NCBI GenBank assembly: GCA_947426355.1 | Contig: CANEDU010000006.1 | Span: 1 to 36,477, forward strand | DNA length: 36,477 bases | Direction: 5' to 3' | From: an uncultured Adlercreutzia sp. | GTDB taxonomy: Bacteria; Actinomycetota; Coriobacteriia; Coriobacteriales; Eggerthellaceae | Shown: in pieces, positions 1 to 12,965 of the stretch | Position numbering within the stretch: position 1 is the first letter of the stretch | How the letters are laid out: each line of letters starts with the position of its first letter | Program-made: the position numbers and the translations under genes | Notes under the pieces: generated by a model | What the model was told of the DNA's origin: nothing | The model's input: only the letters and a program-made list of their open reading frames with translations | Databases searched by the model: none

Positions 1-61
1 CCCCCCACCCCCCCCCCCCCCCGCCCCCCACCGGCCCCCCGCCCCACGCGACCCCGCCCAC

Positions 62-5131: not shown

Positions 5132-7960
5132 CTACCTGAAGCGCTTCAGCAGCAGCGAATTGCTCACGACGCTCACGCTGGAAAGGGCCATGGCGGCGCC
5201 GGCGAGGGCCGGGGCGAGGATGCCCGCGGCGGCGAGCGGAATCATGATGCAGTTGTAGATGAGCGCCCAGAACAGGTTCTGCTTGATCTTGCGCATCGTG
5301 GCCTTCGACAGGCGCAAGGCCACAACGAAATCAGACAGGCGGTTGCGCATGAGCACCACGCTTCCGGCATCCAAGGCCACATCGGTACCCGAGGCGAGCG
5401 CCACGCCGATGTCGGCGGCGGCGAGTGCCGGGGCGTCGTTGATGCCGTCGCCCACAAAGGCCACGATGCTCTTCGATGTCGCAGCCGCATCCTGTGCCAC
5501 CTCGGCCGGGGAAACCAGCGGCAACGGCTGAACGGGCGCGTCGGCCATAGGGTCGGGCGAGGCAGTCATCAAGGGGTCTGCGAGAGCCTCTTCGATGACT
5601 CGCTCATTTTCCCTTTGCGCGCTATCCGCCTGCTCACTGGCGGCCTTGATCAGGGCAACGTCCGCCGCGCCCTTTACCGCCCGCACGCAATCGGCCTTTT
5701 CGAGCGGCTTCACGCCAGCGAAGACGTGCTCGGGGGCGATGCCCACTTCCTGGGCGATGGTGCGAGCCGTAGGCGCCGCGTCGCCGGTAACCATGTACGC
5801 AGTCACGCCATAGGTTTGCGCCAGCTCGCGCACGGTGGCAGCGGCATCGGGTTTCGGCTCGTCGCGGAACTGGATGCGGCCGACCGGCTGGCCATCGATG
5901 CTCACGAGCGAGCCGGACGCGCCTTGGGCACCGTCAGCCTTCCCCACGCCAATGAACACCTCGCGGCCTTCCGCCACGCCGCGCACACCCTCGCCCACGA
6001 GCGCCTCGAAAGCGCTCGCCTCGGGCAGCGGCGCCAGACCGCGCTGCTCGGCATAGGCCACGACGGCCCGGGCCAAGGGGTGCTCGCTTTTCGCCTCGAC
6101 AGCCGCGGCCAGGCGCAGGGCCTCATCGGGTACGTCGCAGGCTACCACCGTCGGCTCGCCCACGGTGAGCGTACCCGTCTTATCGAACACGGCGGCCGAG
6201 AGGCCACCCATGGTCTCCAGCACCGTGCCGTCTTTGATGAGCACGCCGAGCTGCGCGCCCTTCCCCATACCGACGGTAAGCGCCGTGGGCGTGGCCAGGC
6301 CAAGAGCGCAGGGGCACGCCACGCAGATGACCGCGATGGCCGGCATGAGCGCCGACACGAGACGCGCGCTTTCGTCGGCAGCAGGCACCACGAAGAACCA
6401 CACGCAGAACACCACGAGCGCAATGATGAGAATGGCCGGCACGAACACCGCCGCAATGCGGTCGGCGATGCGCTGGATGGGGGCCTTGGTGCCCTGGGCG
6501 TCTTCCACGGCCCGCACGATGCGGGCCAAAGTAGAGTCAGCGCCCACGCGCAGCGCGCGCACCGTCACCGCGCCGGTCGTGTTCTGGGTGCCGCCCGTGA
6601 CCGCATCGCCCGCTACCTTCACCACGGGCACCGTCTCGCCCGTGAGCATGGACTCGTCCACTTCCGTGGAGCCTTCCACCACCACCCCATCGACGGGCAT
6701 CTTCTCGCCGGGACGCACGCGCACGGTATCGCCAGCCACCACCTGGGCAAGGGGTACCTCGCGCTCCTTGCCACCGCGCATTACGCGCGCCGTGGGCGGC
6801 GTGAGGTTCATGAGCGACTCGATGGCCTGGTTCGTGGCCCCCTTCGCGCGGCTTTCCAGCATCTTGCCCAAAAGCACGAAGGTGATGAGCATAGCGCAGG
6901 TTTCGAAATAGGGCATGCCGTCGTTGATGGCGAGCGACTCATGGCCTGTCCAGTCGCCGCGGAAGACCGGCAGAAAGGTAATCCACAGCGAGAAGAGAAA
7001 CGCGATGGTGGTGCCGAGCGCCACGAGCACGTCCATATTCGCCGAGCCGCCCTTGAGCGACCCCCACGCGCCCCGGTAGAAGCGGGCGCCGCAGCCGAAC
7101 TGCACGGGCGCGGTGAGCGCCAGTAGCAGGATGTTCGCGGCGAACATGGCCTGCACGTGGGTCGGCTCGGGCACGAACAGCCCTGCGAGGGCAGCGCCCA
7201 CCCCCATATGCCAGCCGGGAATCATGCCGATGGCCACGATGGCGACCGTGAGCACGGCCGCTATCCCGAACACCTTGCGATCGCGCTTGGCCCGGGCGGC
7301 CTCGCGGGCGCGGCGCTTCTCGTCCACCAAAGGAGCATCGTCGGGGATGATTTCGGCCGCGAAGGCCAGGCTGTCGAACACGGCGAGCATGTCGTCCACA
7401 CTGGCTTGAGCCGGGTCGAAGACCACTTTGCCCGTGTTGTTGGCCAGATTCACCGCCACATCGACAACGCCGGGGGTTTTGCGGTAGTGGCTCTCGATAG
7501 AGGCGGCGCAGTTCGCGCAGTGCATACCCTCGATGGCCAGGCGGATGGAAGCGCTGCGGGGCCCATCTGCCGCGGGATCGGCCTCGTACGCTGAAACGCT
7601 GCCCGAAGCCATGGCTTCGTCGGACGATGACTCCGAGGAAGCCTCCTTCACGCCGCCATCGCACGCCTGCGCCTTTTCTGCGTCCTTCTTGGCCTTCTCC
7701 GCCGCATCGGCGGCTATCTCGGCCGCAAAGGGATGTTCGCCCTCATCCGGCATGACCGCCACCTTGAAGTTGGTGTCATCCAGGGCATGCAGAAGGTCGT
7801 CGAGCGTCACGCGGCTTGGGTCGTACGTCACGTCGACGCGCTGCCCATCTAAATCGACGGCCACCGAGGCCACGCCCGAAAGGTCTTCGTAATGCCGCGT
7901 CACATTCGCCACGCACTTCTCGCAGTGCATGACCGCCACGGCCAAACGCTGGGTTTCCAT
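5132..7960 (-). CDS. copA: Copper-translocating P1B-type ATPase with two N-terminal HMA domains
   Basis: Two CxxC HMA motifs ([20 protein letters not shown]), [12 protein letters not shown] membrane motif, [23 protein letters not shown]. Confidence 0.95.
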
Positions 7961-7974
7961 AGATGCTCCCGTCT

Positions 7975-8364
7975 TTATAGAAAGCGACGCATAAGCGTCA
8001 TCACTTCATCGACCACCTCATCGTTGCCGTCGCGAATCTCCTCCACGACGCAGGTGCGCATGTGCTCCCGAAAAAGCATCTCGGAGACGCGGCGCACGGC
8101 CGATTCGGCGGCGGCCAGCTGGGTGAGCACGTCGCCGCAGTAGCGGTTGTCCTCGATCATGGCCTTCACGCCGTTCAGCTGTCCGATGGCCCGGTTGAGC
8201 CGCCGCGTCACATCGGCCTGCAGCTCCTCCGAGCGCGGCGTGTGCTTATGCCGGCAAGCGCATCCGGAAGCCTCCGCGTTCTTAGAGGCCCTCGCGATAT
8301 CCGCGCGCTCTTTTTCCGTTTCCATGTCCATCTCCGTTTCGCCCGCTTGCGCTTCCGCCTTCAT
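7975..8364 (-). CDS. csoR: CsoR/FrmR family metal-sensing transcriptional repressor
   Basis: [51 protein letters not shown]: Cys-His-Cys CsoR-type ligand set; 14 bp upstream of copA on the same strand. The true start may be an internal Met at 8325, which has GGAG 6 nt upstream. Confidence 0.88.
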
Positions 8365-8523
8365 GTCCCAGGGCGCTTCGCCCCCATTTCCGAGGGTATT
8401 TCAACCGCATTCCATGGTCGTTTCGCCCGCATTTCCAGAGCTACTTCGCCCGCATTTCCGAGGGCATTTCAACCGCATTTCCAGAGCCGCTTCGCCCCCA
8501 TTTCCGAGGGCGCTTCGACCAAT
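8362..8523 (-). repeat. Degenerate 23-bp tandem array (seven ATG-bearing units) between the csoR promoter and csoR
   Basis: Minus-strand units of type cgaagcgcccTcGGaaATGggggcgaagc; ATGs at 8501, 8478, 8455, 8432, 8410, 8387, 8364 (spacing 23,23,23,22,23,23). Confidence 0.9.
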
Positions 8524-8551
8524 CACGCTTTCTTGTGCGCGCGTTTCGTTC

Positions 8552-8581
8552 TTTATACCCCCAGGGGGTATTTTTTGTCAA
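8552..8581 (-). promoter_or_regulatory. csoR-copA promoter with embedded CsoR operator
   Basis: Minus strand TTGACA (8576-8581) - 18 bp - TATAAA (8552-8557). The perfect palindrome atacccccAgggggtat (8555-8571) overlaps the spacer and matches the known GC-rich CsoR operator type. Confidence 0.85.
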
Positions 8582-8615: not shown

Positions 8616-8778
8616 TGGCAGAAAATGACGTTTCGAGGCGCAGTCAGAGAGCCTTTCCTTAACCGTCAGTGACGATTTCCGAGATATCGAAGCCCGCTCT
8701 CGCCGAATTGCGGCCCGAACACCCCCGGTATAAGCCGGCCGCGTCGCACGCTGCGCCTCCAATCGACATTTTCTGCCA
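8616..8778. repeat. MITE-like element A with ~28-bp inverted termini
   Basis: Left tggcagaaaatgacgtttcgaggcgcag (8616-8643); right end reverse complement tggcagaaaatgtcgattggaggcgcag (8751-8778); 3 mismatches in 28. Confidence 0.75.
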
Positions 8779-12813: not shown

Positions 12814-12965
12814 TGGCAAGTTTTTTCGATTTGAGGCGCACTGAAGGTGCCTTCGACGCACATATCGGCCTTTTTTGACGCTATTTGCTCGGAACAACCG
12901 CTCGAAATCGCGATTATCGGGGCTGATTACGACTCCCTCGCGCCTCAAAACGCACTTTTTTGCCA
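12814..12965. repeat. MITE-like element B, same family as element A
   Basis: Left TGGCAAGTTTTTTCGATTTGAGGCGC, right end reverse complement TGGCAAAAAAGTGCGTTTTGAGGCGC; both resemble element A TGGCAGAAAATGACGTTTCGAGGCGC. Confidence 0.65.

Follow-up and report, generated by a model that had tools for sequence, protein, structure and literature searches.

A degenerate 23-bp tandem array ahead of csoR in an uncultured Adlercreutzia sp. is probably a lineage-specific expansion in a tolerant leader

Introduction

The closest general likeness to the locus described here is found in the intergenic minisatellites, or VNTRs, of bacteria. These are species-restricted, head-to-tail arrays of degenerate, noncoding units of 20-80 bp that grow block-wise. 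The array that we describe shares these features, but it appears to be part of a regulator gene's transcribed leader and extends to the start codon of that gene.

Some described leaders and start regions carry repeats too. In the pil1 leader of S. gallolyticus, GCAGA repeats lie within a leader-peptide gene that controls a terminator, and so attenuation (PMC3894217). That leader resembles the one studied here in having a tandem repeat together with upstream reading frames. However, the csoR leader has no recognizable terminator, its unit is 23 bp and its upstream frames are short and poorly started. In the Beggiatoaceae, TAACTGA direct repeats with a unit of 7 nt are found upstream of start codons at 169 loci in one genome, where they mostly replace the Shine–Dalgarno sequence (SD), and a post-transcriptional role has been proposed for them (PMC4679880). 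These are also tandem repeats just 5′ of a start codon, whereas the csoR array occupies one locus and an SD is present.

Two further comparisons concern copper. The CutF-CutO system of Rhodobacter is an example of translational copper control, in which CutF, a copper-binding protein that is exported, has a stalling-like motif and a stem-loop covers the ribosome-binding site (RBS) (PMC9973294). The likeness is that translation of a copper gene could hinge on translation upstream of it; the csoR leader, however, has neither a CutF-like ORF nor an RBS-masking stem. Other CsoR-controlled csoR-copA operons have the same promoter with an embedded operator, followed by csoR and then copA, all of which are conserved, but their leaders are about 35-60 nt long rather than ~220 nt. 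An earlier sequence-only reading of this DNA knew of no described csoR leader of this kind, and the open-access literature that we searched holds nothing to contradict it.

Results

The window is the whole stretch of DNA that was analysed, 36,477 nucleotides of contig CANEDU010000006.1. It comes from a draft assembly of 230 contigs that is 79.6% complete and that represents the species by one genome. A nearly pure C tract at window positions 1-45, at the contig end, is perhaps an artefact of the assembly edge. The features of the locus are collected in Table 1.

Table 1. Features of the csoR-copA locus, in window coordinates.
Feature	Position	Strand	Details	Basis
csoR promoter	8552..8581	-	TTGACA (8581-8576), 18-nt spacer, TATAAA (8557-8552)	direct reading
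CsoR operator TACCCCCTGGGGGTA (predicted)	8556..8570	-	within promoter spacer; GC-rich palindrome	
Degenerate 23-bp tandem array, seven full units	8349..8517	-		TRF
Tail of unit 7 and probable shortened unit lacking an ATG (gaagcgcaagcgggc)	8341..8363	-		direct reading, inference
Last, apparently decayed full unit GAAACGGAGATGGACATGGAAACGGA	8315..8340	-	holds GGAG (8335-8332) and probable csoR ATG 8325	
csoR, copper-sensing repressor (Trns_repr_metal)	7975..8325	-	start re-assigned to 8325 (probable), 116 aa	
copA, P-type copper ATPase	5132..7960	-	3′ of csoR, same strand	ORF and Pfam

To judge from its sequence, the locus is an ordinary CsoR-type csoR-copA operon. The csoR product belongs to the CsoR/RcnR family of repressors (Pfam PF02583, E 1.5e-26), and that of copA matches PF00122 and PF00403, with two heavy-metal-associated domains. 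With the promoter and operator upstream and both genes downstream, the array would lie in the transcribed leader of this operon, with transcription predicted to start near 8545. A consensus promoter scanner missed the csoR promoter because it accepts only -10 boxes that end in T, and the box was found by direct reading. The same TTGACA/TATAAA arrangement with an embedded palindrome precedes csoR in relatives, and nearly all of them have a TACCCCCTGGGGGTA-type palindrome at the matching promoter position. From general knowledge of the family we take this palindrome to be the CsoR operator. The window has only one CsoR-type palindrome at csoR; many family members (L007, L013, L018, L020, L022, L035) have two, the second lying after the -10 box and before the csoR SD.

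The array itself is real. TRF reports a period of 23, 7.3 copies, 70% matches and a score of 136, against a best score of 70 for arrays of period at least 15 in 100 dinucleotide-shuffled windows, so that the head-to-tail tandem units noticed in the sequence-only reading are above chance. The seven unit ATGs are at the positions given there (8501, 8478, 8455, 8432, 8410, 8387 and 8364), and the uniform 23-nt step between them holds except from 8432 to 8410, which is 22 nt. Further upstream ATGs are found at 8467, 8415 and 8331, the last just 5′ of the probable csoR start. The upstream ORFs (uORFs) are also as originally described. That at 8387 encodes MGAKRPGT and its TGA overlaps ATG 8364, that at 8432 shares its frame and runs for 23 aa to the identical stop, and those from 8501 and 8455 are short (10 and 4 aa).

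The identities between units are uneven. Over 23 bases, u3 and u6 agree at 21, u1 agrees with each of these at 20, and u2 agrees with u4 at 19 and with u5 at 18. These identities suggest a block-wise copying of units that later decayed. A match of 70% does not suggest a recent expansion. As 13 of the 26 columns in the unit alignment are invariant, the ATG is not singled out by conservation.

Downstream of these units we read GAAACGGAGATGGACATGGAAACGGA as one more repeat unit, decayed, following the shortened unit and in register with ATG 8325. Over the ~150 nt downstream nothing matches the profile of the seven units better, and its score of 13.3 ranks 8th of 72,904 window positions. Outside the array only one site on either strand of the window outscores it, and the score was matched in 6/2000 shuffled downstream regions.

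The csoR start probably lies at ATG 8325, not at ATG 8364, because the best SD is found there and the resulting N-terminus resembles those of relatives. ATG 8325 has a GGAG with a 6-nt spacer and an SD energy of -6.6 kcal/mol, the strongest among all candidates; the other ATGs range from -2.2 to -4.7 kcal/mol, including the poor SD of ATG 8364 (-4.7 kcal/mol), which is supplied by the GGGGCGAA of the repeat. The protein from 8325 begins METEKERAD, about 23 residues ahead of the conserved CRHKHTPRS, and CsoR proteins from the genus begin MEEKDE, MEDRTA, MEEKGE, MEVEKD and similar, nearly all with a stronger SD. With this start the array would become a 5′ leader of ~220 nt, nearly all of it repeat. 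The sequence-only reading had offered this arrangement as an alternative, and it is supported by SD energies, by how CsoR begins in relatives and by where the promoter lies. Its proposal that the array ends in register on the csoR start codon stands, albeit at 8325 and not at 8364, and in that sense holds further on than claimed since 8325 lies in the decayed unit. The N-terminal part of CsoR ahead of the conserved CRHK motif is hypervariable in L010, L025, L029 and L079 and includes low-complexity or repeated segments, such as RTDRTDRADRTGRADQADQ in A. hattorii.

The array appears to be confined to this lineage. A search of 140 family genomes with its DNA returned nothing but the array itself at E 0.001, and it is thus absent from the eight other genomes of the genus. 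All eight keep csoR with its promoter and operator. Searched for as a whole, the array was found only once in its own assembly. Two near matches at other places in the genome are due to chance and lie in apparently coding sequence, and we reject a dispersed repeat family. An origin from the ancestral ribosome-binding region of csoR was also rejected, as the unit matches the csoR start regions of relatives no better than it matches 215 other gene starts.

In 7/8 congeners the leader from the -10 region to the csoR start is about 35-60 nt, with a strong SD. For A. hattorii the length was counted by eye, the automatic start call for its csoR being wrong. The remaining congener, G004, has a leader of ~170 nt (L015 1280-1480) with about four degenerate ~24-nt units (GACGGCGCTAGGCAACAGCGTGAA...). 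Homology between these repeats and the leader in the window was rejected, the alignment score being equal to, and no higher than, those of shuffles. A further apparently long leader, in L097, was traced to an error of start choice; a start with its own ribosome site is found just after the second operator. The CopA proteins do not resolve G000, G004 and A. hattorii. Something may favour long csoR leaders, because a long array is placed exactly between the operator and the csoR start here, and the G004 leader was lengthened at the equivalent place.

A MITE-like element of ~163 bp with ~23-bp inverted ends (TGGCAGAAAATGTCGATTGGAGG) is found at window positions 8616-8778. The element lies 5′ of the -35 box of csoR, at a distance of about 35 bp, and a copy is similarly placed in G004; these two are the only ones of the nine genus genomes to contain the inverted ends. 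Paired ends recur in this genome at C2:15083-15183, C8:4141-4280, C26 and C177, and G004 has them at several places as well. One more single copy of the end, with 1 mismatch, is located at window positions 12943-12965, and no partner was seen with the search pattern.

Degenerate arrays are not rare in these genomes. We found several noncoding arrays of unrelated sequence in each of two samples, 760 kb from this genome and 400 kb from that of A. hattorii. The former has intergenic arrays of 41/82-bp and 70-bp units (L171 12650-12960 and 13314-13455), and 42-bp units in L210; the latter has 37-bp and 10-bp units in L188. A GC-position proxy was used to tell coding from noncoding sequence, so that some of those listed may be coding. 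What sets the csoR array apart is its copy number and not its kind.

Discussion

We consider that the array is best explained as a lineage-specific, minisatellite-like tandem expansion in a tolerant, transcribed but untranslated leader, with a probability of roughly three in four. CsoR would bind the TACCCCCTGGGGGTA palindrome in the promoter and let go upon binding copper, which is ordinary copper control. A transcript from near 8545 would then carry about 220 nt of leader, and ribosomes would initiate at ATG 8325, using the GGAG site within the last decayed unit. Slippage or unequal exchange probably enlarged the array, and blocks of units may have been copied that later diverged to the present 70% match. 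The upstream ATGs would be part of the repeated sequence, weakly used or unused, and any effect of the array on csoR would be passive, by way of leader length and structure.

A structured RNA leader is a doubtful alternative. Each unit could fold into a hairpin of 8 bp capped by a GAAA loop (CGCCCUCG-GAAA-UGGGGGCG), and a row of such hairpins could stabilise the mRNA or bind a protein. The hairpin of unit 1 is present in the predicted fold, and 83.9% of the cells in the unit pairings are standard pairs compared with 37-50% when slid. However, shuffled partners among the units reach 80.1%, and two-sided changes are found in one pair versus 1.9 expected, i.e. there is no covariation in the unit hairpins. 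Conserved RNA hairpins were rejected on these grounds. The predicted fold puts most units into other structures, and the whole leader folds in an ordinary way (z -0.67 versus shuffles). No Rfam family matches the leader at the gathering score. The GGA loops might suggest CsrA binding, but this was rejected as no CsrA gene was found in the 79.6% complete assembly. Transcription attenuation was likewise rejected, since a search of the minus strand from 8545 to 8326 found no intrinsic terminator.

It is unlikely that the array is a translational tuner, as the sequence-only reading had proposed. Translation would begin at the upstream ATGs, and how many ribosomes get as far as csoR, by coupling at the ATGA of 8364-8361, would depend on the unit count, so that a change in copy number would tune the CsoR level. 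Such a device would make sense of an ATG in every unit, of a period of 23 that shifts the frame, of uORFs from 8387 and 8432 that terminate on ATG 8364, and of the position in the leader of a regulator gene. That said, the coupled ATG 8364 is probably not the csoR start, the upstream ATGs have weak SDs (none of their ribosome sites is good, at -2.2 to -4.7 versus -6.6 kcal/mol at 8325) and the ATG is one part of the many invariant columns, no more conserved than the unit. The 70% match between units argues against an actively changing array. We also predicted the accessibility of the csoR start for leaders with 0-7 units. It is high throughout (SD region unpaired 0.59-0.82, ATG 0.83-0.85) with no trend, and a dependence on copy number was rejected. 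The earlier reading had named the absence of the array from close relatives with identical copper regulation as grounds against a switch, and what we find is close to this: 8/8 congeners have no array, yet have the same promoter, operator and csoR. A translational switch is not supported, and nothing found here shows one. The wider proposal, that an array of start codons running into the real start sets the translation level of the repressor, so that copper homeostasis would be reset within the species as units are gained or lost, is in our view very unlikely.

We regard it as highly improbable that the units are extra or decayed CsoR operators, with half-sites of the form ACCC...GGGG, that bind the repressor. 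Second operators do exist in the relatives noted above, just upstream of the SD, and the unit at 8387 reads TACCCTCGGAAATGGGGGC. In the array, however, the half-sites are spaced 4-5 bp further apart than in operators, about half a helical turn, and by direct reading the TACCC half-site is kept in one unit only and the GGGTA half-site in none. We give next to no credence to an assembly artefact, which a draft of 230 contigs could suggest, as the units are diverged and distinct, the array is inside a continuous contig and the promoter and gene are intact on either side.

Conclusions

If the array is functional, copy number would tune the leader of a metal sensor, and we found no described case of that kind. 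If it is neutral, it illustrates that start-codon calls beside repeats need to be checked against relatives, as the longest-ORF start is not the likely start here. Two species with lengthened leaders and a shared inverted-repeat element at csoR make this a fair locus for asking what drives leader growth.
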